A stretch of 64,000 nt of DNA from Pseudomonadota bacterium (GTDB lineage Bacteria; Pseudomonadota; Alphaproteobacteria; Acetobacterales; Acetobacteraceae), in the NCBI GenBank assembly GCA_021851785.1, contig JAJZBV010000008.1, positions 1 to 64,000 on the forward strand, written 5' to 3'. The notes under the pieces are model-generated. The model was not told where the DNA came from. It was given only the letters and a program-made list of their open reading frames with translations, and searched no databases. A program made the translations under genes and the position numbers. Positions 4,747-53,523 of the stretch are shown here, piece after piece; positions within the stretch are counted from its first letter, which is position 1; the number at the start of each line of letters is the position of its first letter.

Positions 4747-4750
4747 TTTT

Positions 4751-4850
4751 AGAGTGGGATGACATCGCCTTCGCTCGGCCATCCCCCTCTCAATCTTCGT
4801 TTGATCGCGTGATTCAGACCTACGGCGATTCCGCCTTCGGTCATCACGCG
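4751..4850 (+). repeat. two-hairpin 3'-end element, copy 1
   Basis: It begins four bases after the PQQ dehydrogenase stop. Hairpin A pairs AGAG and GGGATG (4751-4761) with CATCCC and CTCT (4780-4790) and is followed by T-rich sequence. Hairpin B is nested: CGCGTGAT (4806-4813) with ATCACGCG (4843-4850), GACC (4817-4820) with GGTC (4839-4842), and GGCG (4824-4827) with CGCC (4832-4835). A diverged copy lies inverted at 35903-36003 after flgH. It probably acts as a terminator and may be a dispersed repeat family. Confidence 0.75.
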
Positions 4851-4873
4851 CTAGCACCCGCGGCGTGGTGCGG

Positions 4874-6136: not shown

Positions 6137-6268
6137 CGCGAAATCCATTTCCTGAAGCCGATGACGCAAAAACGAAACCCCGGCATGGCCTTCGCCACGC
6201 CCGGGCGATCGTCTTATCCCCAAACCCGCCGCCGCCGTCAAGCGGCAGGCGGAGAGCGGGGGAAGATC

Positions 6269-6384
6269 GTTCTTTTTTGAAAAAAAGAACCAAAAAACTT
6301 TATCCGTTTTCTCGGGCGGGCAGTGCCACAGGCACTGCCCAAGGGGGAAAGTCTTTTTTGCTTCTTTTTCTTCAGAAAAAGAAG
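6269..6384. repeat. composite three-hairpin element, copy 1
   Basis: Three perfect inverted repeats in a row. H1 pairs GTTCTTTTTT with its complement (6269-6290). H2 pairs GGGCAGTGCC with GGCACTGCCC (6318-6340). H3 pairs CTTCTTTTTCT with its complement (6361-6384). H1 and H3 carry T-runs able to terminate transcription in both directions. It lies just downstream of smpB. Related copies are at 24101, 29745, 32479 and 53413. Confidence 0.8.
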
Positions 6385-6405
6385 AATCTATTCTTATAAT
6401 TTTCT

Positions 6406-15266: not shown

Positions 15267-15401
15267 CCTTGCCGGCGAGAGAGGAGTGATCTCCCGAAGC
15301 ACAACCCGCGGATGAAATTCCTGACGCCACGTCCTCCCCGTGACAAGACGTGACTAACACTTTAAAGAGCCATAAGAATCTTGTCCGGGGGGAAGATATC
15401 C

Positions 15402-17006
15402 ATGTTCAACCAGCTATTGACGCCGGTCGCGGGAAGCTTGCCGCTTTCCTTCGTGATCGCAGCACTGCCGATCGCCGTCGTGCTCGCCTTGCTCGGCATC
15501 GCGCGGTGGCCGGCCTGGCAATCCTCGCTCGCCGGGTTGATCGTCGGCCTCGCGATCGCGATCGGGGTCTGGCAATTGCCGGCCGGGCTCGCTCTCGATG
15601 CGGTCGCCAACGGGGTCGTGTTCGCGCTCTGGCCGGTGATGTGGATCGTCTTCACCGCGCTCCTGCTCTACAACCTCGCGGTTGCCGCCGGGCGCTTCGA
15701 TGCGTTTCGCGACTGGGTTCTGGTGCATCTTCCCAATGACCGCCGGGTGGTTCTGGTGGTGGTCGCGTTCTGTTTCGGCGCCCTGCTCGAAGGCATCGCC
15801 GGGTTCGGAACCCCGGTCGCGATCACGAGTTCGCTCCTCATCATGGTTGGCTTCCGGCCGCTCGAGGCGTTGACCTATACGCTGATTTTCAATACCGCCC
15901 CGGTCGCCTTTGGGGCGCTCGGCGTCCCCATCACCGTGCTCGGCGCGGTGACGCATCTGCCGGCGGTTCCGCTCGGGCAGATGGTCGGGCGGCAATTGCC
16001 GGTTTTTGCCTTCATCCTGCCGTTCTACGTCATGGCGCTCTATGGCGGGCGGCGCTCGCTCGCCGCTCTCTGGCCGATGCTCCTGGTCGCCGGGGCGAGC
16101 TTCGCGCTCACCCAGTTCGTGGTCTCGAACTATGTCAACTACGCCCTGACCGACGTGCTTTCCTCCCTGGTCTCGCTCATCGTCACCGTCGCCTTCCTCA
16201 AGATCTGGCGCCCGGCGCATGATCCGGATTACGCCATCGCGAGCGCCATCCGCGACGGCGCCCGCCATGAGACGCTGAGCCCGTGGGCGGGTTGGATGCC
16301 CTGGATCCTGGTCTCGGTCGTGGTCATCGCCTGGACGATCTTGAAGGTGTTCCTGATCGGGGATTGGAAAATCGCCTGGCCGGGCCTCGACAAGGCGGTG
16401 TTCATCACCCTCTACAAGGTGCCCTATGGCGCGATCTGGGATTTCCAACCGCTCGGCACCGGCACCGCCATTCTGCTCGCGGCGGTGATCGCTTCGGCGC
16501 TGATGGGGATCGGGCCCGGCGGCTTCGTCAAGGCGATCGGCGATACCTGGCGCCAGACCCGGATCGCCATTCTCACCGTCGCCCTCATCGTCGGGCTCGC
16601 CTTCCTGATGAATTATTCCGGCATGACCTACACGCTCGGCCTCGGCGTCGCCTCCCTCGGCCTCCTGTTCCCGCTGGTCTCGCCCTTCCTCGGCTGGGTC
16701 GCGGTCTTTCTTTCGGGCAGCGACACCTCGGGGAATGCCCTGTTCGGCAATCTCCAGGTGGTGGCGGCGAACCAGCTTCAACTCAATCCGGTGCTGATCG
16801 CCGCGACCAACTCCTCGGGCGGTGTCATGGGCAAGATGATCTCGCCGCAGAACATCGCGACCGGGGTTTCGACCACCGAACTCAAGGGCCAGGAAGGGAT
16901 GGTTTTCGCCCGCACCTTCATCCACAGCATCTTTTTCACTTTGCTGCTCGGCCTTCTGGTGCTGGTGCAGCAATATTTGATCCCCGGGATCATTCCGCAT
17001 CCCTGA
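15402..17006 (+). CDS. lldP: L-lactate permease, first tandem copy
   Basis: A 534-residue transporter of the LctP/LldP family, with roughly a dozen hydrophobic helices. Family motifs are EGIAGFGTPVAITSSLLI, NYSGMTYTLG, LGWVAVFLSGSDTSGNALFG and ATNSSGGVMGKMISPQNIA. It imports L-lactate (and often D-lactate or glycolate) with protons. ATG 15402 is chosen because GGGGGGAAG sits 6 bases upstream and it aligns with the start of the second copy. A strong terminator follows. The partner oxidation operon lutABC is at 57089-60070. It differs from copy two by scattered substitutions, with long blocks of identity. Confidence 0.95.
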   Translation: MFNQLLTPVAGSLPLSFVIAALPIAVVLALLGIARWPAWQSSLAGLIVGLAIAIGVWQLPAGLALDAVANGVVFALWPVMWIVFTALLLYNLAVAAGRFDAFRDWVLVHLPNDRRVVLVVVAFCFGALLEGIAGFGTPVAITSSLLIMVGFRPLEALTYTLIFNTAPVAFGALGVPITVLGAVTHLPAVPLGQMVGRQLPVFAFILPFYVMALYGGRRSLAALWPMLLVAGASFALTQFVVSNYVNYALTDVLSSLVSLIVTVAFLKIWRPAHDPDYAIASAIRDGARHETLSPWAGWMPWILVSVVVIAWTILKVFLIGDWKIAWPGLDKAVFITLYKVPYGAIWDFQPLGTGTAILLAAVIASALMGIGPGGFVKAIGDTWRQTRIAILTVALIVGLAFLMNYSGMTYTLGLGVASLGLLFPLVSPFLGWVAVFLSGSDTSGNALFGNLQVVAANQLQLNPVLIAATNSSGGVMGKMISPQNIATGVSTTELKGQEGMVFARTFIHSIFFTLLLGLLVLVQQYLIPGIIPHP

Positions 17007-17069: not shown

Positions 17070-17211
17070 GGCCGAAGAGGGGGCTGACCAGGCCGGAAAC
17101 GCCACGAAAGATCATTGCCGGGGGCGAAATTTCCGGGGCCGCAATGTCCATGACAAGACGAGGATGACGCCCTAAAAAGTCAGAAAATCTTGCCTGGGGG
17201 GGATGACGGTC

Positions 17212-18798
17212 ATGTTCAGCCAGCCCTTGACGCCGGTGGCGGGAAATCTGCCGCTTTCCTTCGTGATCGCCGCCCTCCCGATCGCCGTCGTGCTCGCCTT
17301 GCTCGGCCTCGCGCGGTGGCCGGCCTGGCAATCCTCGCTCGCCGGGTTGATCGTCGGCCTCGCGATCGCGATCGGCGTCTGGCAATTTCCGGCCGGACTC
17401 GCCTTCGCTGCCGTCACCAGCGGCATCGCTTTCGCCCTCTTGCCGATCATCTGGATCGTCTTCAACGCGCTTTTGCTTTATCATATTTCGGTCGCCGCCG
17501 GGCGCATCGATGCGTTTCGCGACTGGATCCTCGTCCATCTCCCCAATGACCGCCGCAGCGTCCTGGTGGTGGTGGCGTTCTGTTTCGGCGCCCTGCTCGA
17601 GGGCATCGCCGGCGGAGGAACGCCGGTCGCGATCACGAGTTCGCTCCTCATCATGGTCGGCTTCCGGCCGCTCGAGGCGTTGACCTATGCGCTGATTTTC
17701 AACACCACCCCGGTCGCCTTCGGCGGCTTCGGCGTTCCCATCACCGTGCTCGGCGCGGTGACCAACCTGCCCACCCTCGCGCTCGGGCAGGAGGTCGGAC
17801 GGCAATTGCCGGTCTTTTCCTTCATCCTGCCATTCTATGTGATCGCGCTCGATGGCGGGCGGCGCTCGCTCGCCGCGACCTGGCCGATGCTCCTGGTCGC
17901 CGGCGGCAGTTTCGCGCTCACCCAGTTCGTGGTCTCGAACTACGTCAACTACGCCCTGACCGACGTGCTTTCCTCCCTGGTCTCGCTCATCGTCACCGTC
18001 GCCTTCCTCAAGATCTGGCGCCCGGCGCATGATCCGGATTACGCCATCGCGAGCGCCATCCGCGATTCCGCCCGCCACGAGACGCTGAGCCCGTGGTCGG
18101 CGTGGCTGCCCTGGGTTCTGGTCTCGGTCGTGGTCATCGCCTGGACGATCTTGAAGGTGTTCCTGATCGGGGATTGGAAAATCGCCTGGCCGGGCCTCGA
18201 CAAGGCGGTGTTCATCACCCTCTATAAAACGCCCTATGCCGCGATCTGGGATTTCCAACCGCTCGGCACCGGCACCGCCATCCTGGTCTCGGCCATTATC
18301 GCGGCAGGGCTGATGGGGATCGGGCCAGGCGGCTTCGTCAAGGCGATCGGCGCTACCTGGCGCCAGATCCGGATCGCGATGCTGACCGTGATCCTCATCG
18401 TCGGCCTCGCCTATCTGATGAATTATTCCGGCATGACCTACACGCTCGGCCTCGGCGTCGCCTCCCTCGGCCTCCTGTTCCCGCTGGTCTCGCCCTTCCT
18501 CGGCTGGGTCGCGGTCTTTCTTTCGGGCAGCGACACCTCGGGGAATGCCCTGTTCGGCAATCTCCAGGTGGTGGCGGCGAACCAGCTTCAACTCAATCCG
18601 GTGCTGATCGCCGCGACCAATTCCTCGGGCGGCGTCATGGGCAAGATGATCTCGCCGCAGAATATCGCGATCGGCGTCTCGACCACCGAATTCAAGGGGC
18701 GGGAGGGCGTGGTTTTGGCCCGCACCTTCCTCCACAGTGTCGTTTTCACCCTGCTGGTCGGTATTTTGTTGCTGGTGCAGCAATATATCATTCCGTGA
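17212..18798 (+). CDS. lldP: L-lactate permease, second tandem copy
   Basis: A 528-residue LctP/LldP transporter closely matching the gene upstream in every motif, except that EGIAGGGTPVA replaces EGIAGFGTPVA and the C-terminus is shorter. ATG 17212 aligns with the start of copy one and follows a G7 run at a suitable distance; ATG 17203 is an alternative. Even the leader is shared: TGACAAGACG and an ATCTTG-CCGGGGGG-like stretch precede both starts. It is a tandem duplication that included the 5' region. The two may differ in expression or in substrate range. Confidence 0.95.
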   Translation: MFSQPLTPVAGNLPLSFVIAALPIAVVLALLGLARWPAWQSSLAGLIVGLAIAIGVWQFPAGLAFAAVTSGIAFALLPIIWIVFNALLLYHISVAAGRIDAFRDWILVHLPNDRRSVLVVVAFCFGALLEGIAGGGTPVAITSSLLIMVGFRPLEALTYALIFNTTPVAFGGFGVPITVLGAVTNLPTLALGQEVGRQLPVFSFILPFYVIALDGGRRSLAATWPMLLVAGGSFALTQFVVSNYVNYALTDVLSSLVSLIVTVAFLKIWRPAHDPDYAIASAIRDSARHETLSPWSAWLPWVLVSVVVIAWTILKVFLIGDWKIAWPGLDKAVFITLYKTPYAAIWDFQPLGTGTAILVSAIIAAGLMGIGPGGFVKAIGATWRQIRIAMLTVILIVGLAYLMNYSGMTYTLGLGVASLGLLFPLVSPFLGWVAVFLSGSDTSGNALFGNLQVVAANQLQLNPVLIAATNSSGGVMGKMISPQNIAIGVSTTEFKGREGVVLARTFLHSVVFTLLVGILLLVQQYIIP

Positions 18799-24071: not shown

Positions 24072-24100
24072 GGTGTTGGCGGGAAGGTAGGGAAGAAAGC

Positions 24101-24122
24101 GTTCTTTTTTGAAAAAAAGAAC
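24101..24122. repeat. composite element, copy 2 (first hairpin only)
   Basis: The H1 hairpin of the family is present (GTTCTTTTTT with its complement, followed by CCAAAAAAC). H2 and H3 are missing. It sits 30 bp after cobT and 18 bp before the end of the convergent gene, so it can act as a bidirectional terminator. Confidence 0.7.
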
Positions 24123-24139
24123 CAAAAAACGTCTCACTG

Positions 24140-25867
24140 TTAGGTCGTGGCTGGGTCTGGCGGCGGCAGGTCGGCGAAGGCCGGGATCCGCGCGATCAGC
24201 GCCGCGTGGAGTGCCGCCCGCCGCGCCCAAAGGTCATGATACCAGGCGATGCGCGGCGGAATTTGATCGGCGAGCATGCGGCGCGCGGCGATCAGCGCGC
24301 GCGCTTCCTCGGCGAGGCCGCGCGTCCAGACCGGGGTCTCGATCATGCGGGAGAGCAGCGTCCGCAATTCGTCAGGGTTACGGAAAATCGCGCCGTTCCG
24401 GCCAGCGTCGATGACCTCGCCATACACCGTCGCGCTCGCCAGCGCGGCGACCCTGCGGGCTGCCGCCTCGATGAATTTGAGATCGGATTTGCAGCGATTG
24501 AAGGGTGTATCACCGAGCGGCATGAACGAAATCTCGGCCTCGGCGAGGCGCGCGAGATAATCGGGGTAGTCGAGCATCGGATGGAACACCTTGTGCGGCG
24601 TCGCCAAGGCGTCGAAAAACCCGCGGTCATGGACGACGACGAAGCGGAGCCGCTCCCCGGCAGCCGCCGCGACCGCGTTCAGCGCCGGCATGAATTCCGG
24701 CCAGTCGGCCTCGCGGTTGATGCCGCCGAAAAATAGCGCAAGGCGCGTGGGATCGGCGAAATTCCGCGGCGGTGGAAGCTGGCTTACGGCATTGGGGAAA
24801 GCCGCGACCTCGGGATTGGCGCGGCCCAGCACCTCGGCCAGCCGCGGCGTCGTCGTCTGCACCGCATGCACGGCGCGGAAATTATGCATCTCTGGGTGTT
24901 GCAGGATAGGAATGAAATCGGGGTGGTCGTCGAATTCGCACACCACCAGGAATCCCGCCGCGATCACCGCGCGCAGCGTCGCGAGCCCGGTCTCGCCGAG
25001 GAGCGCCGGGCGGTGGAGGATCAGGATCCGCGGAACCCCCGGCGCTGGCCGCGGCAAATCACGGAGATTGGTGAGCCGCGCCTGCACGCCGGGTGCGGCG
25101 GCCAGCGCCTGCATCGGCTCGACGACGCGGACATGGCTCACGCCTCCGACCGGGGCCAGCATGGTGGCGAAAATCTGCAGCCGCGCCGGCGGCGTGCGCG
25201 TTGCCCGCCAGACATGCTGGAGCGGCAGGGCGCGGCGCGCATACGCCTCGCGATCGACGCCAAGGGCATCGAGCGCCGGGGCGATGGCGGCGATGAAGCG
25301 CTGGCCGCGCTCGCCCTCGAACACCCGCCCGACGCTGTCGAGCGGCACATAGCCGGCCTCGGCGAGGGCCTGGCGGCCGCTTTCCTGGGAGAACCAGCGC
25401 AGATGCGTCTGATCAAAGAGGCCGCTCTCCTCGTAGCGCCAGCCGCCTTGCAGGAGGCGCGCGGCGAAACTCCAATGCTCGACATTGGGCAGCGAGGCGA
25501 GCAGCACACCGGTCGGTGAAAGGAGGGAGGCGTTGCGGCGAAGCAGCGCCCAGGGGTCGCGCAAATGCTCCAGCACATCGCCATAGATCAGGCAATCGAC
25601 GGCGCCGGTGAAACGATCGGGGAGGGCCACCGTCTCGACATCGCCGGTGATCACGCCATCGAGCCGGCCGGCCGCCACCGCCGCCGCCCGCGGATCGCCC
25701 TCGATGCCGAAAACCCGGGCGCGGGGATTGCGCTGCTTGAACGCGAGGCCGAGTGCCCCGGTGCCGCAGCCGATATCGAGCACCAACCCGGCCCAGAGCG
25801 GGATGCGCTCCAGAAGCTCCGCGTTATAGCCGTCGGCGTAGGGATAGGGCGCGACGGGCGCCGACAT
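24140..25867 (-). CDS. methyltransferase-glycosyltransferase fusion protein
   Basis: A 575-residue protein of two parts. Residues 1 to about 220 are a class I SAM-dependent methyltransferase: VLDIGCGTGALG at 29-40, GIEGDPRAA, and LIYGDVLEHLRDPW as the post-II region. From about 235 the sequence resembles GT-B-type glycosyltransferases (FATMLAPVGGVSHVRVVEPMQAL, LILHRPALLGE, LFFGGINREADWPEFMPALN and EAEISFMPLGDTPFNRCKSDLKFIEAAA). It likely modifies a cell-surface sugar. Its start codon touches the ugd stop (two genes abut without gap), tying it to UDP-glucuronate supply. Substrates are not evident. Confidence 0.8.
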   Translation of the reverse strand: MSAPVAPYPYADGYNAELLERIPLWAGLVLDIGCGTGALGLAFKQRNPRARVFGIEGDPRAAAVAAGRLDGVITGDVETVALPDRFTGAVDCLIYGDVLEHLRDPWALLRRNASLLSPTGVLLASLPNVEHWSFAARLLQGGWRYEESGLFDQTHLRWFSQESGRQALAEAGYVPLDSVGRVFEGERGQRFIAAIAPALDALGVDREAYARRALPLQHVWRATRTPPARLQIFATMLAPVGGVSHVRVVEPMQALAAAPGVQARLTNLRDLPRPAPGVPRILILHRPALLGETGLATLRAVIAAGFLVVCEFDDHPDFIPILQHPEMHNFRAVHAVQTTTPRLAEVLGRANPEVAAFPNAVSQLPPPRNFADPTRLALFFGGINREADWPEFMPALNAVAAAAGERLRFVVVHDRGFFDALATPHKVFHPMLDYPDYLARLAEAEISFMPLGDTPFNRCKSDLKFIEAAARRVAALASATVYGEVIDAGRNGAIFRNPDELRTLLSRMIETPVWTRGLAEEARALIAARRMLADQIPPRIAWYHDLWARRAALHAALIARIPAFADLPPPDPATT

Positions 25868-28448: not shown

Positions 28449-29756
28449 GTGTCCGTTCCTTGCGACATTCTGGTGATCGGCGGCGGTCCGGCCGGCGCCA
28501 CCGCCGCGGCGCTGCTCGCCGAGGCCGGCCATGACGTCGTCATGCTCGAAAAAGCGGCGCATCCGCGCTTTCATATCGGCGAATCCCTGCTCCCCGCCAA
28601 TCTCCCCTTGCTGGAGCGGCTGGGCGTCGCGGCGCAAGTGGCGGCGATCGGGGTCAAAAAACCGGGCGCCGAATTCGTCTCCGACGCCCATCATCGCGCC
28701 GTCGCCTACCCGTTCGCGTCCGGCGACAGCGCGGCGCGGCCCGATTACAGCTATCAGGTGCCGCGCGCCGCCTTCGACGCCATCCTGTTCGCGAACGCGC
28801 TTCGCCGCGGCGCGCGCGGGATCCAGAACACGCGGGTGATCGCCGCCCGTCTCACCCAAGGCGCGCCGGCCGAGATCACCGCCATCGGCGCCGGCGGCGA
28901 AACCCTTCACTTCGCTCCCCGCTTCGTCCTCGACGCCTCCGGGCGCGATACCTTCCTCGCCACCCGCGCGCGTCTCAAGACCGCCCACAAGCACAACAAC
29001 ACCGCCGCGATCTTCGGTCATTTCCGCAACGTCGCCTGCCATCGCGACGGGCGTCACGGGTATATCAGCATCCATCTCGCCGAAAACGGCTGGTTCTGGT
29101 TCATCCCGCTCCCCGACGGCGTGACCAGCGTCGGCTTCGTCGGCAATCAGGCGGCGTTCCGCCGCCGCGGCGCCGATATCGAGGAGTTTTTTCGCGCCCG
29201 CATCGCGGCCAGCCCGAGCGTCGCCCAGCGCATGGCGCCGGCGGTGGCGCTGGGCGCGGTCACCGCGACCGGCAATTATTCCTATCGCGCCCGCGCGGCC
29301 GGCGGCGACGGATATTTCCTGATCGGCGATGCCTTCGCCTTCATCGATCCGATTTTTTCGAGCGGCGTCATGCTGGCGATGCGCGGCGCCGAACTCGGCG
29401 CCGGGGTCGCGAGCGCCTGGCTCGCCGACCGGCGCGCCGGGCTGCGTCTCGCGCGGCAGGCGGAGGCGCGGATGCGCCGCTCCCTCGACGGCCTCGACTG
29501 GCTGATCCGGCGGATCAACACCCCGGCTCTCCGCGACATGTTCATGGCGCCGCAGGATCGTTTCGGCATGCGCGCCGGCCTGGTGTCGCTGCTCGCCGGC
29601 GATCTCGACGCGCCGCGGCTTCACCTTCCGGTGCTCGCCTTCAAGGCCTCGTTCCACCTGCTCAACGCCATGCGCCGCCTCGGCTACCAGCTCCAGCCCG
29701 ACGGCTCGCTGCTCCGCGCCGGCGGCGGAGAAGGCGAAAGAGCCGTTCTTTTTTGA
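28449..29756 (+). CDS. FAD-dependent halogenase-like monooxygenase
   Basis: A 435-residue flavoprotein. GGGPAGA at 11-17 binds FAD; GESLLP at 44-49, GWFWFIP at 214-220 (the WxWxIP motif of flavin-dependent halogenases) and GDAFAFIDPIFSSGV follow in family order. A lysine pair (GVKKPGAEF, 68-76) lies where halogenases keep the chlorinating lysine. A halogenase or related hydroxylase/reductase function is possible; the substrate is unknown and no biosynthetic cluster surrounds it. The start is GTG with GGGG nine bases upstream. Its last codons and TGA lie inside the composite hairpin element, so the C-terminal VLF is repeat-encoded. Confidence 0.8.
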   Translation: MSVPCDILVIGGGPAGATAAALLAEAGHDVVMLEKAAHPRFHIGESLLPANLPLLERLGVAAQVAAIGVKKPGAEFVSDAHHRAVAYPFASGDSAARPDYSYQVPRAAFDAILFANALRRGARGIQNTRVIAARLTQGAPAEITAIGAGGETLHFAPRFVLDASGRDTFLATRARLKTAHKHNNTAAIFGHFRNVACHRDGRHGYISIHLAENGWFWFIPLPDGVTSVGFVGNQAAFRRRGADIEEFFRARIAASPSVAQRMAPAVALGAVTATGNYSYRARAAGGDGYFLIGDAFAFIDPIFSSGVMLAMRGAELGAGVASAWLADRRAGLRLARQAEARMRRSLDGLDWLIRRINTPALRDMFMAPQDRFGMRAGLVSLLAGDLDAPRLHLPVLAFKASFHLLNAMRRLGYQLQPDGSLLRAGGGEGERAVLF

Positions 29757-29853
29757 AAAAACTTTTACCCGTTGGGCAGTGCCTACGGCACCGCCCGCTC
29801 CGAGAAAACAGGAAGCAAAGTCTTTTTGCTTCTTTTTCGGAAGTCAAAAGAAG
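29745..29853. repeat. composite three-hairpin element, copy 3
   Basis: H1 is shortened (GTTCTTTTTT then GAAAAAAC), H2 pairs GGGCAGTGCC with GGCACCGCCC (29774-29796), and H3 pairs CTTCTTTTT with AAAAGAAG (29829-29853). It overlaps the 3' end of the halogenase-like gene and separates it from the convergent binding-protein gene. Confidence 0.75.
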
Positions 29854-31516: not shown

Positions 31517-32461
31517 ATGAATGGCGCCGAGGTCGCGGCGGCGGTCGCGCGGTTCGCGCAAATCCTGGGCATGATTTCGGCCTTCGGGGCGCTCGGTTTT
31601 CGCCTGCTGGTTTTGCCGGGCGTTGGGCGAGACGAAGCCCTTGTCGCCGAGATGGCGGCCAGGCTCGGGCTTCTTGCGCAAGCGAGCCTCGCGTTCGCGC
31701 TCCTCGGCGGGCTGGCGCGGCTCGGCTGGCAAGCGGCGGTGGTTGGCGATGCCGGCGGGGGCGAGGCCGGCTCGGTTTCGGCGCTGGTCGCGGCGGCGGC
31801 GGACATGGTCGCGCTGACCCGGTTTGGTCAGTTCCTCGCCCTGCAATGGCTGGCGCTCGCCCTCGCGCTGGTGCTGTCGCCGGGGCGCGGGCGGCCCGCC
31901 GCTTGCGCCGCTCTCGCCGGGCTCACCCTCGCGCTGGTGCTGGCGGCGGGAAGCGGGCACGGCGCGGCGATGCCGGGATGGCGGGGCGATGTTCTGTGGA
32001 TGGTGGCCAGCCTTCATGTTCTTGCCGCCGGGGTCTGGCTCGGCGGCCTCGCGCCGCTCTCGCTGCTGCTCCGCCGCCTTCCCGCGCCCGCCGCGGCGGC
32101 GGCGGTCGCGCGGTTTTCCGCGCTCGCGACGATCGCCGTTGCCGTGCTCGCGCTCTCGGCGCTGGCCCAGGGAGCGGCGCTGATCGGCGGCCTCGCCGCT
32201 CTCGCCGCGAGCCCCTATGGACGGCTCATCCTGGTGAAGACGCTGCTGTTCTTGACCCTGCTCGGGTTTGGCGCGCGCAACCGGCTGTTGCTGCTCCCGG
32301 CCCTCGCCGGCGCCAATGGGCCGATCGCCTTGCGCGCTCTGCGGCGCGGCCTGGGCTGGGCAATGGCGCTCGCGCTGGCGGTGCTGCTCGCCGCGAGCTT
32401 TCTCGGGAGCCTCGCGCCCGGGCAAGATTTTCGTGGAGGCGATACGCTGGCCGCCTCATAA
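31517..32461 (+). CDS. copD: copper resistance membrane protein CopD
   Basis: A 314-residue integral-membrane protein with about eight hydrophobic segments. The pattern RFAQILGMISAFGALGFRLL, SLHVLAAGVWLGGLAPLSLLL and GRLILVKTLLFLTLLGFGARNR is typical of the CopD domain, with the conserved His and Lys in the second and third. It is thought to move copper across the inner membrane in concert with CopC. GGGG precedes the ATG by a few bases. The composite hairpin element follows and separates it from the convergent amidotransferase gene. Confidence 0.9.
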   Translation: MNGAEVAAAVARFAQILGMISAFGALGFRLLVLPGVGRDEALVAEMAARLGLLAQASLAFALLGGLARLGWQAAVVGDAGGGEAGSVSALVAAAADMVALTRFGQFLALQWLALALALVLSPGRGRPAACAALAGLTLALVLAAGSGHGAAMPGWRGDVLWMVASLHVLAAGVWLGGLAPLSLLLRRLPAPAAAAAVARFSALATIAVAVLALSALAQGAALIGGLAALAASPYGRLILVKTLLFLTLLGFGARNRLLLLPALAGANGPIALRALRRGLGWAMALALAVLLAASFLGSLAPGQDFRGGDTLAAS

Positions 32462-32478
32462 GGGGGAAAAGTTTTTTG

Positions 32479-32525
32479 GTTCTTTTTTCAAAAAGAACAG
32501 GACTTCTTTTTTGTAAAAAAAGAAG
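32479..32525. repeat. composite element, copy 4 (two hairpins)
   Basis: Two perfect hairpins: GTTCTTTTTT with AAAAAGAAC (32479-32498) and CTTCTTTTTT with AAAAAAGAAG (32503-32525). The GGCAGTGCC hairpin is absent. It lies exactly between convergent copD and the amidotransferase gene. Confidence 0.75.
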
Positions 32526-32536
32526 CAAAAAAACTT

Positions 32537-33277
32537 TTATCCTGGAAAGGTTGGGCGCGGTCGTTCGCGGCAGGCGGCGGCGAAGGCGGCGAAGAGACGG
32601 TGGCTCGCCGCGTTTTCCCCGGCGCGCCATTCCGGGTGCCATTGCACGCCGATCGCGAAGCCTTTCGCGTCCGCGGCGCGGACGCCCTCGATGGTGCCGT
32701 CGGGGGCGGTGGCCTCGATCACGAGGGCGGGCGCCGGCCGGTCGATCGCCTGTTCGTGGACGGAGTTCACCATGATTTCGGCGGCGCCGATGATCTCGGC
32801 GAGCCGGCCGGAGAGCCGCACCTGATGGCGGGCGGCGTAGCGCGCCTCGCGATCGCTCTCATGGCCGAGATGGGTGAGGCGCCCGGGGACGGCGCTGAGC
32901 TTCTGGATCAGCGTGCCGCCGAGGGCGACGTTCAGCTCCTGAATGCCGCGGCAGATGGCGAGCAGCGGCAGGCCGGCGGCGAGCGCTTCGCGGGTGAGGG
33001 CAAGGGTGGTCGCGTCGCGGGCCGGGTCATGGGCGCCGGGGGTCAGATCCTCGGCGGCGCCGTAGCGCCAGGGCTCGACATTGCTCGGGCTGCCGTCGAG
33101 CAGCAGGCCGTCGAGCCGGGGAAGCAGCGCCAGCGCCGCCTCGCCGATCGGCGGGATCAGCACCGGGACGCAGCCGGCGGCGTCCAACAGCGCCGCGCCA
33201 TAACGCGCCGGGGCGCTGTGATGCACCTGCCCCTTGCTCGCGATCGCGCAGGCGGGAATACCGACGACGACGGCCAT
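32537..33277 (-). CDS. class I glutamine amidotransferase (peptidase C26, gamma-glutamyl hydrolase type)
   Basis: A 246-residue cytosolic hydrolase of the PuuD-like family. The catalytic triad is C109 in LAICRGIQELNVALGG, and H214 and E216 in GVQWHPEW. VNSVHEQAID is the family's substrate-side motif. PuuD cleaves gamma-glutamyl-GABA in putrescine breakdown; other members act on gamma-glutamyl conjugates, and no other puu gene is nearby, so the substrate is open. It is monocistronic and converges on copD across the composite hairpin element. Confidence 0.88.
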   Translation of the reverse strand: MAVVVGIPACAIASKGQVHHSAPARYGAALLDAAGCVPVLIPPIGEAALALLPRLDGLLLDGSPSNVEPWRYGAAEDLTPGAHDPARDATTLALTREALAAGLPLLAICRGIQELNVALGGTLIQKLSAVPGRLTHLGHESDREARYAARHQVRLSGRLAEIIGAAEIMVNSVHEQAIDRPAPALVIEATAPDGTIEGVRAADAKGFAIGVQWHPEWRAGENAASHRLFAAFAAACRERPRPTFPG

Positions 33278-35805: not shown

Positions 35806-35902
35806 TCCGCCCGCCGGCCCTCCCGAAGCCCCGGGGGTGGGTTTTCCCCCAGGGGGGTTTTTCCCGGGACGCCGTTTTGGCGCCGAGCCGTTTTGGCCCC
35901 AG

Positions 35903-36003
35903 AGCGTGATGACCGAAGGTGGACTCACCCGCAGGTCTCACTCACGCGATAAAACAAAGAGCGAGAGCAGGGCGCCTTCGTCTATCAGAAGGCATCCTGC
36001 TCT
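35903..36003 (-). repeat. two-hairpin 3'-end element, copy 2
   Basis: Read on the minus strand it directly follows, and slightly overlaps, the flgH stop. Hairpin A pairs AGAGCAGG and GCCTTC with GAAGGC and CCTGCTCT (36003-35964), followed by TTTGTTTTATC, a good Rho-independent terminator. Hairpin B pairs GCGTGA with TCACGC, GACC with GGTC, and GGTG with CACC (35903-35948). Compared with copy 1 (4751-4850) the inner stem changed from GGCG:CGCC to GGTG:CACC, a compensatory change. Orientation relative to the upstream gene is the same. Confidence 0.8.
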
Positions 36004-36736
36004 AGAACGGCAGCAGCACGTCCAGCATCTGCTGGCCCCAGCGCGGCTCGTTGACCTCGGTGAGCTGGCCACGTCCGGCATAGGTGATCCGCGCCTCGGC
36101 GATGCGGTCATGCGGCACGGTGTTGTCGCTCGCGATGTCCTCCGGGCGGATCACCCCCGTCACCTTCACCTGGCGCAATTCGGCGTTCACCAGCATCTCC
36201 TGGCGCGCGACGACGACGAGATTGCCGTTCGGCAAGACCTGCGTCACCACCGCGGCGAGGCGGACGGTGACGGTCTCGTTGCGCTGGATCTGGCCGATGG
36301 TGAAAAGATTGGTGCCGCTGGTGGTATTGACGAGATTGGCGGGGGTGGAGCCCTTGAGGAACGAGGGCATCAGCGCGCCGAGGCCGAAGAAGCCGGGCAT
36401 GCCCATCGTCTCGCTGTCGGTGCGCTGCTCCATGGTGTTGTCGTTGGCCGTCGCGGCGTCGTTCACGTTGACGACGATGGTGACCAGATCGCCGACCTTG
36501 GCGGCGCGCTCATCCTTGAAGAAGGCACGCGAGCCGGGGCGCCAGAGGCTGTTTTCGACCGGCGGCGGCGGCTGCGGCGCCGGCGTCGGCATGGTCATCG
36601 GGCGCCAGTCGGGGGCGAGGGTCGGATCGGTGGAGGCGGAAACCGGCGGCGGCTTGCCGACCTCGGCGAGATTGGCGAGCACGCCGCAGCCGGGCAGCAG
36701 CGCGGCCAGGGCGACGGCGAACAGGTGGCGGCTCAC
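36002..36736 (-). CDS. flgH: flagellar L-ring protein FlgH
   Basis: A 244-residue outer-membrane lipoprotein forming the L ring around the flagellar rod. Lipobox LLPGC puts the acylated cysteine at 17. Family motifs are SLWRPGSRAFFKDERAAKVGDLVTIVV (part of it at 63-88), LVVVARQEMLVNAELRQVKVTGVIRPEDI, and the terminal GRGQLTEVNEPRWGQQMLDVLLPF region. It starts at GTG 36736, overlapping the flgA stop by four bases. It is the last gene of the leftward flgF-flgG-flgA-flgH operon, followed by a terminator hairpin. Confidence 0.95.
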   Translation of the reverse strand: MSRHLFAVALAALLPGCGVLANLAEVGKPPPVSASTDPTLAPDWRPMTMPTPAPQPPPPVENSLWRPGSRAFFKDERAAKVGDLVTIVVNVNDAATANDNTMEQRTDSETMGMPGFFGLGALMPSFLKGSTPANLVNTTSGTNLFTIGQIQRNETVTVRLAAVVTQVLPNGNLVVVARQEMLVNAELRQVKVTGVIRPEDIASDNTVPHDRIAEARITYAGRGQLTEVNEPRWGQQMLDVLLPF

Positions 36737-53365: not shown

Positions 53366-53412
53366 GCTGCGGCCCTCCTCAAGGATGTTAGGCATACGAG
53401 AGCAAAAGAGTC

Positions 53413-53523
53413 CTCTTTTTCTGAAGAAAAAGAAGCAAAAAGACTTCTATCCGGTTTCCTCGGCGCGGCAGTGCCTGCGGCACTGCCCAACCGGGAGAAA
53501 AGTTCTTTTTTGCAAAAAAGAAC
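53413..53523. repeat. composite three-hairpin element, copy 5
   Basis: An inverted full-length copy: H3 (CTCTTTTTCT with its complement, 53413-53435), H2 (GGCAGTGCC with GGCACTGCC, 53467-53487) and H1 (GTTCTTTTTT with its complement, 53502-53523). It lies immediately downstream of glyS on the minus strand and upstream of ppdK. Confidence 0.8.

Follow-up and report, generated by a model that had tools for sequence, protein, structure and literature searches.

What is the element of about 100 bp that occurs twice in the 64,000-nucleotide stretch of DNA analysed here (the window), once after a PQQ dehydrogenase gene and once after flgH? The first-pass annotation had described the two copies as having a common order and orientation, and had proposed a functional RNA or a mobile REP-like unit, not just two chance terminators. 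Sequence and alignment agree with the description: read from the upstream gene, both copies run from a Q hairpin through a T-rich linker to a P hairpin (Table 1), and they are copies of one element of about 105 bp. Copy 1 lies between the PQQ dehydrogenase gene (PF01011, + strand) and a convergent histidine-kinase-type gene (PF02518), and copy 2 between flgH (PF02107, - strand) and a Hint-domain gene convergent with it. The inner stem of hairpin B had been correctly read as GGCG:CGCC in one copy and GGTG:CACC in the other; hairpin A is indeed paired in both, but its sequences, said to be entirely different, align from the TAGAG start. Folded on the + strand, each copy was more stable than all of its 200 shuffles (z -4.3 for copy 1 and -5.0 for copy 2), whereas copy 2 folded in the flgH direction was less striking (z -3.0, with 1 of 200 shuffles equally good). 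A covariance-model scan of the window returned the two full copies, together with two other matches at chance level (E 0.26 and 1).

Table 1. Coordinates of the two element copies and their parts in the window
Feature	Position	Strand	Basis
Copy 1, two-hairpin element (TA...TA plus one base)	4750..4854	+	alignment, model match, empty site in G003 and G001
Copy 1, hairpin Q (hairpin A of the first-pass annotation), left terminus TA-GAG	4750..4791	+	fold, covariation
Copy 1, T-rich linker, consensus CTTTGTTTGATC	4792..4806	+	alignment
Copy 1, hairpin P (hairpin B of the first-pass annotation)	4807..4849	+	fold, covariation
Copy 1, GANTC site 1 (GATTC)	4811..4815	.	sequence
Copy 1, GANTC site 2 (GATTC), within the P loop, starting at base 23 as counted from the right-hand TA (4853-4852)	4827..4831	.	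sequence, arithmetic
Copy 2, two-hairpin element, right-hand TA decayed to TG	35899..36004	-	alignment, model match, empty site in G003 and G001
Copy 2, hairpin Q; flgH stop codon supplied by its terminal TAG (36004-36002)	35963..36004	-	fold, gene call
Copy 2, hairpin P, approximate limits	35904..35947	-	fold, alignment
Copy 2, GANTC (GACTC on the + strand), in the P loop, base 23 from the TG end	35922..35926	.	sequence, arithmetic

The element is not confined to these two sites. At E<=1, blast with copy 1 hit the genome 16 times, and eight of these hits, among them copy 1 itself, were nearly full-length; a covariance model built from ten copies (R1) gave 21 matches at E<1e-4, some of them truncated, so that further copies, whose absence from a genome-wide search had been named beforehand as the refuting outcome, do exist. 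Across 60 genomes at E<=0.01 a match was found in at least 21, namely the genome under study, 2 of 5 congeners, 17 of 30 genomes from other genera of the same family and 1 of 24 from other families; the distribution is thus patchy even inside the genus, and the lone match in another family (G052, E 0.00996) is probably due to chance. Copy numbers reach at least 64 in G020, at least 66 in G023 and at least 66 in G029, and G012 and G025 are likewise copy-rich, with at least 45 and at least 32. A broader model (R2), for which ten candidates were scored per genome, matched at E<=1e-4 in at least 39 of a sample of 385 genomes of the class, and the four other same-family genomes listed in that scan gave no match among the ten candidates scored for each. 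A pattern scan of named genomes returned at least 115 stretches, from Mesorhizobium, Caulobacter, Bosea, Asaia, Rhodopila, Sphingobium, Brucella and others, which, judging by their titles and genera, are alphaproteobacterial, except for one contig labelled Nitrosovibrio and one labelled only "Bacterium". In six genomes reached through these stretches and scanned with R2 at E<=0.01 there were 27 and 4 matches (Caulobacter), 47 (Rhizobium), 136 (Bosea), 37 (Sphingobium) and 108 (Rhodopila), and a model match was also present on a Brucella haematophila contig; relatives of the element are widespread in Alphaproteobacteria. On plasmids, blast with copy 1 gave no match, a sister subfamily gave one partial match (Rhodovastum), and a class relative gave eight records, four of them from Bradyrhizobium. 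The 102-copy set used below was listed by hand and leaves out truncated copies (L010, L011, L048, L067, L070, L073, L074 and L139 1501-1585), duplicate loci, and any additional match that was weak or overlapping; it counts both L059 (G015) and L097 (G023), which are identical in element and flanks. The named set derives from 80 of the at least 115 stretches, which were fetched, and holds 87 of 92 model matches.

That structure is conserved over sequence, as had been claimed, is borne out by strong covariation. RNAalifold run on alignment A4 dropped the outer P stem, and a structure of 30 pairs was therefore named by hand, partly from the same sequences, for which reason it was set against shuffled alignments and slid structures. 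Over 35 aligned representatives, 88.0% of cells were paired (71.6 when shuffled), and 25 of the 30 pairs had changes on both sides (17.1 when shuffled), a count that takes in copies related by descent and is inflated by them. The covariation score was 0.462 against 0.187, with 0 of 500 shuffles as high and slid structures at 0.06-0.12. Compensatory change is therefore general across the representatives and extends well beyond the few pairs noted at first; the Q arm is the most variable part of the element.

It could be that what is conserved here is a structured RNA, kept for the transcript as a 3'-UTR element, a 3'-derived small RNA, or a bidirectional terminator or mRNA stabiliser. Such a role would suit the stable folds of both window copies, the double changes in 25 of 30 pairs and the position of both copies between convergent genes, as well as an apparent enrichment in convergent gaps (37 of 89 element gaps against 15 of 71 others, p 0.007, as counted with a home-made gene caller, the other gaps being obtained by subtraction and two-copy loci being counted twice). 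However, selection on one strand of a transcript is expected to keep G-U wobbles and to lose A-C wobbles, and among the 35 representatives the two are balanced between strands (G-U 38, A-C 43, p 0.66). In addition, there was no Rfam match in the window at gathering scores, no terminator call within copy 1 or copy 2, and no preferred orientation in gaps between tandem genes (22 against 18), and the orthologous sites in congeners are without the element. The functional-RNA branch of the original proposal thus found no support, and a structure maintained for its transcript appears unlikely. A secondary role in termination would be compatible with a mobile element. Because G-U and A-C wobbles are equally frequent, the element looks, from its substitution pattern, to be conserved as palindromic DNA rather than as a one-strand RNA.

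The termini and the occupancy of orthologous sites suggest what kind of DNA this may be. The element reads Y-TA-GAGC...GCTC-TA-R, with complementary ends; of 102 copies, 97 have Y (C or T) immediately in front of the left TA and 97 have R (G or A) immediately behind the right TA, while the T and A themselves are present in 91 and 86 copies at the left end and in 88 and 86 at the right, and the flanks of empty sites have diverged. Some neighbouring copies have an end TAG in common (L084 and L100). In congeners G003 and G001 the copy 1 site is empty, with both flanking genes adjacent and 25 and 13 bases between the matches, and the copy 2 site is empty as well, with both flanks present and two bases separating the matches; each window copy is therefore polymorphic for insertion between orthologous sites. 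G003 has TTAG at the copy 1 site, where the flanks are too diverged to give the exact pre-insertion target, and in G002, G004 and G005 flgH is followed by other sequence and no element. Covariation, dispersed copies and insertion polymorphism together uphold the view that these are not just two chance terminators. The stop codon of flgH is TGA in five congeners and here is the element's own TAG. Six of the 102 copies overlap a called gene by more than 40 bp, with seven at locus edges left unjudged by the home-made caller. Furthermore, a coding-scored frame ends in the element's terminal stop triplet in 45 of the 201 flanks of the 102-copy set, against 42 such frame ends over all 59 positions just outside the element, although part of this excess is expected, as a stop triplet is available at nearly every element end but not at most of the positions outside. 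Separately, the window holds a double GCCGTTTTGGC motif downstream of flgH (35870-35897), slightly altered but kept in G003, G001 and G005, which do not have the element there; this is possibly the native terminator or a binding site.

Together with the IS630 ends described below, these features, judged from sequence comparison, make it highly probable that the element is a two-armed, CIR-like and non-autonomous MITE belonging to the IS630 family (IS630-Tc1-mariner group), with a putative IS630 transposase as its mobiliser, and both window copies are very probably short mobile DNA moved by a common bacterial transposase. At 105 bp the element is too short to contain a transposase gene of its own. 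Of 9 genomes searched for the IS630 DDE domain (PF13358), 7 have it, the genome under study in a single fragment at the edge of a contig; at E<=1e-20 it occurs in 35 of 60 family genomes. We retrieved 49 PF13358 loci, and 17 of them possess a TA-bounded pair of complementary ends, against 1 of 49 when shuffled. At one end or both, ten of these 17 read TA-GAGC; nine of the ten measure 1,046-1,058 bp and one 1,146 bp. A clear example is L144, which holds an ORF with an IS630-type HTH and a DDE_3 ORF in two frames. The same IS630 ends occur in the same-family genome G027 and on a Kozakia baliensis plasmid, and other plasmid-borne IS630 elements also have TA-GAGC ends. In G023, the Q ends of 21 of 23 copies match the 5' end of that genome's own IS630 element (L148) at 17 or more of 20 bases. 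Outside G023 only 1 of 79 copies does so, namely L059, which is identical, flanks included, to a copy in G023; when 200 random 20-mers beginning TAGAGC were compared with element ends, 17 matching bases were reached once and 15 or more in 11. Against this, for eight other IS ends the closest element end has no more than 13-16 of 20 bases in common, and the copy-rich genomes G012 and G025 gave no PF13358 match at E<=0.001. In the genome under study no intact IS630 transposase was found, only the contig-edge fragment, so that the partner there is either missing or unassembled. The match to an IS630 end is clear-cut for G023 and looser elsewhere.

Other transposases could in principle account for a dispersed, palindromic element. 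BIMEs and REPINs are two-hairpin palindromic intergenic repeats, and by its likeness to them the element might be a REP unit spread via its hairpins by a Y1 transposase (RAYT, IS200/IS605-like). However, a search for PF01797 gave no match in the genome under study and was positive in 5 of 14 control genomes, and the complementary ends, the TA context and the termini are held in common with IS630 elements, all of which makes such an origin very improbable. The mobile part of the earlier proposal therefore stands, since the element is dispersed and insertion-polymorphic, while a strict REP identity does not, given the lack of a Y1/RAYT match and the IS630-type TA-GAGC inverted-repeat ends. It might also be supposed that the element is a MITE mobilised by a different DDE family whose target is YTAR/CTAG or TNA, for example IS5, and the Y-TA-R context suits a YTAR target equally well. 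Nevertheless, the matching TA-GAGC ends sit on elements with PF13358 (IS630), the family whose ends were searched, and the 21 of 23 G023 copies match an IS630 end, so that we consider another DDE family a poor candidate. For an IS630-type MITE, the proposed mechanism would be that IS630 transposase supplied in trans attaches to the element ends, excises the element and reinserts it at YTAR, duplicating TA. The arms would remain paired because they matter as DNA, and copies would persist where harm is small, often at gene ends; a terminal TAG usable as the stop codon of a gene may offer a simple reason for this tolerance.

A further regularity concerns GANTC, the CcrM methylation site. At least one GANTC is present in 95 of the 102 family copies, and in the window copies it lies in the terminal loop of one arm; copy 2 has lost the outer P-arm site. 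Positions were counted from the T of the terminal TA as 1, with the start of GANTC scored, and elements were required to have TA at both ends (61 of 102 family, 24 of 29 class and 53 of 87 named elements), near-duplicates then being removed within each set to leave 30, 24 and 48, among which an element may still be common to two sets (L075 and L292 read alike). GANTC begins at position 23 of one end in 15 of 30, 20 of 24 and 21 of 48 of these (56 of 102 in total), against shuffle expectations of 0.15, 0.2 and 0.4, and in none of these 102 deduplicated small elements does it do so at both ends. By the same arithmetic both window copies have the site at 23 of the P end. Among 26 alphaproteobacterial IS630 elements the site at 23 is found at the transposase-side end in 21 (7 of 10, 11 of 13 and 3 of 3 by set) and at the other end in none (p 7e-10, which is only a guide, the elements being related by descent). 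The first ten of these 26 were picked from the 17 end-paired loci for having at least one GAGC end. From 16 plasmid loci, L368 (5' end not found), L373 (a gammaproteobacterium) and L366 (the same IS as L228) were set aside, leaving 13; among these the register of L364 was corrected manually to the TA adjoining GAGC, which changed the script value from 28 to 23. A further six loci were reduced to three by omitting L375 and L379, whose ends were not found, and the gammaproteobacterial L374. The two gammaproteobacterial elements have no site at 23 of the 5' end, and L374 has one at its 3' end. Three Azotobacter loci were included, and the ends could be read in two. By eye, position 23 of the 3' (non-promoter) ends of IS630 elements often reads GGNTC or GCNTC, which resembles GANTC but has no methylatable adenine.

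It is on balance probable that the GANTC at 23 is merely a recognition motif of the transposase, kept for binding and with no role for methylation. The base at N is A in 41 of the 56 small elements with the site, and some lineages are without it: only 27 of the 48 deduplicated named elements have any GANTC, 20 of 25 Mesorhizobium rows have none, Rhodopila has GANTC elsewhere but 0 of 6 at position 23, and two Caulobacter genomes have it there in 3 of 9. On the other hand, at each of the two P-arm sites N varies more than any other of the five bases (19/102 against 34/408, p 0.006, and 27/101 against 28/403, p 2e-7, the copies not being independent), as a methylation site would allow, and the site occurs on the transposase side only (21 of 26 against 0 of 26). 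CcrM methylation is tied to the cell cycle, and a GANTC in one end could let it time transposase expression or transposition. A tentative proposal, for which the chances seem to us somewhat below even, is that in alphaproteobacterial IS630 elements and their two-hairpin MITEs methylation of the site at 23 gates transposase expression or end recognition, so that movement would occur mainly just after passage of the replication fork. If so, this would be an alphaproteobacterial counterpart of the Dam control of IS10 and would explain the methylation sites in CIR repeats. The genome under study encodes a CcrM-type methylase (PF01555 and PF18755). At the very end of the methylase gene (L177:1429-2589, equal to G000:C45:124015-125175) lies a GANTC-bearing copy of the element (G000:C45:123914-124018), whose terminal TAG is the stop codon of that gene. 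In G029 copies such as L104, L107, L113, L114, L117, L119 and L120, a P-arm site that reads GAGTC is often accompanied by GAGTC at the second site, though the two are unpaired, which hints at conversion between the sites.

A two-armed IS630-type MITE is a known kind of element, and several described repeats resemble the one studied here. The closest are the CIR repeats of Caulobacter (Chen and Shapiro, 2003, as described in the accessible text of Delihas, 2008, PMC2229807), which are about 110 bp long, CcrM-associated and of unclear mobility, and which are also mentioned in the accessible part of a 2024 review of MITEs (PMC10969869). By that published description, CIR and the present element agree in a length of about 105-110 bp, in two long inverted-repeat arms with a linker, in TA termini and a mostly intergenic location, in a GANTC at the terminal loop of one arm, and in occurrence in Alphaproteobacteria, including Caulobacter and Brucella (PMC2229807, accessible text). 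However, the table in that source enters "-" for terminal inverted repeats of CIR, whereas the present element has complementary GAGC ends as in IS630, and GANTC, a CIR trait, is lacking from some relatives of the present element. The RUP element of Streptococcus pneumoniae, proposed to move by IS630-Spn1, is similarly a 107-bp MITE at TA targets with IS630-like ends, but it belongs to another phylum and no functional DNA motif is reported for it in the same accessible text (PMC2229807). ISRm10-1 and ISRm2011-2, IS630-family elements by the names in their plasmid records, have TA-GAGC ends and a GANTC at 23 on the transposase side; unlike the present element they measure 1,046 and 1,057 bp between called ends and carry a DDE transposase gene. 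RIME1 consists of two large palindromes and is of about the same length as the present element. RIME1, the Sm-repeats and the ABC motifs, all named for Rhizobium in the accessible part of PMC2573895, resemble it further as intergenic, rhizobial repeats, a likeness drawn from their description. For IS10, IS50 and IS903, Dam methylation acts as a replication-linked switch of transposase expression (PMC9296519, accessible text); these are other families under another methylase, and the parallel drawn here is hypothetical.

Delihas (2008), in its accessible text, notes that more information is needed on how CIR elements move (PMC2229807). Two-armed alphaproteobacterial repeats have long been known without a mobiliser, and the IS630 ends would provide a concrete transposase candidate, while a GANTC at a fixed position would make the presence of CcrM sites in such repeats directly testable. 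The accessible text of two papers on CcrM (PMC3973325 and PMC5172544) makes no mention of such elements, and among the papers listed by a literature search, which most subscription papers lay outside, there was nothing closer on the IS630 link or the position-23 GANTC; as far as that search reaches, both may be unpublished.

The window contains other repeats besides the element described above. A dispersed repeat at 6248-6392, 24080-24151, 29724-29798, 32450-32542 and 53404-53523 consists of inverted-repeat T/A-rich units around GTTCTTTTTTGAAAAAAAGAAC, some of which adjoin a GGCAGTGCC palindrome, and a stretch similar to it precedes L067 in congener G004. A 57-bp direct repeat (71-127 and 1095-1151) is 100% identical over copies 1,024 bp apart. 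A longer direct repeat, with 85% identity over 300 bp (15387-15686 and 17197-17496), falls in two successive long ORFs, which are probably tandem paralogues.
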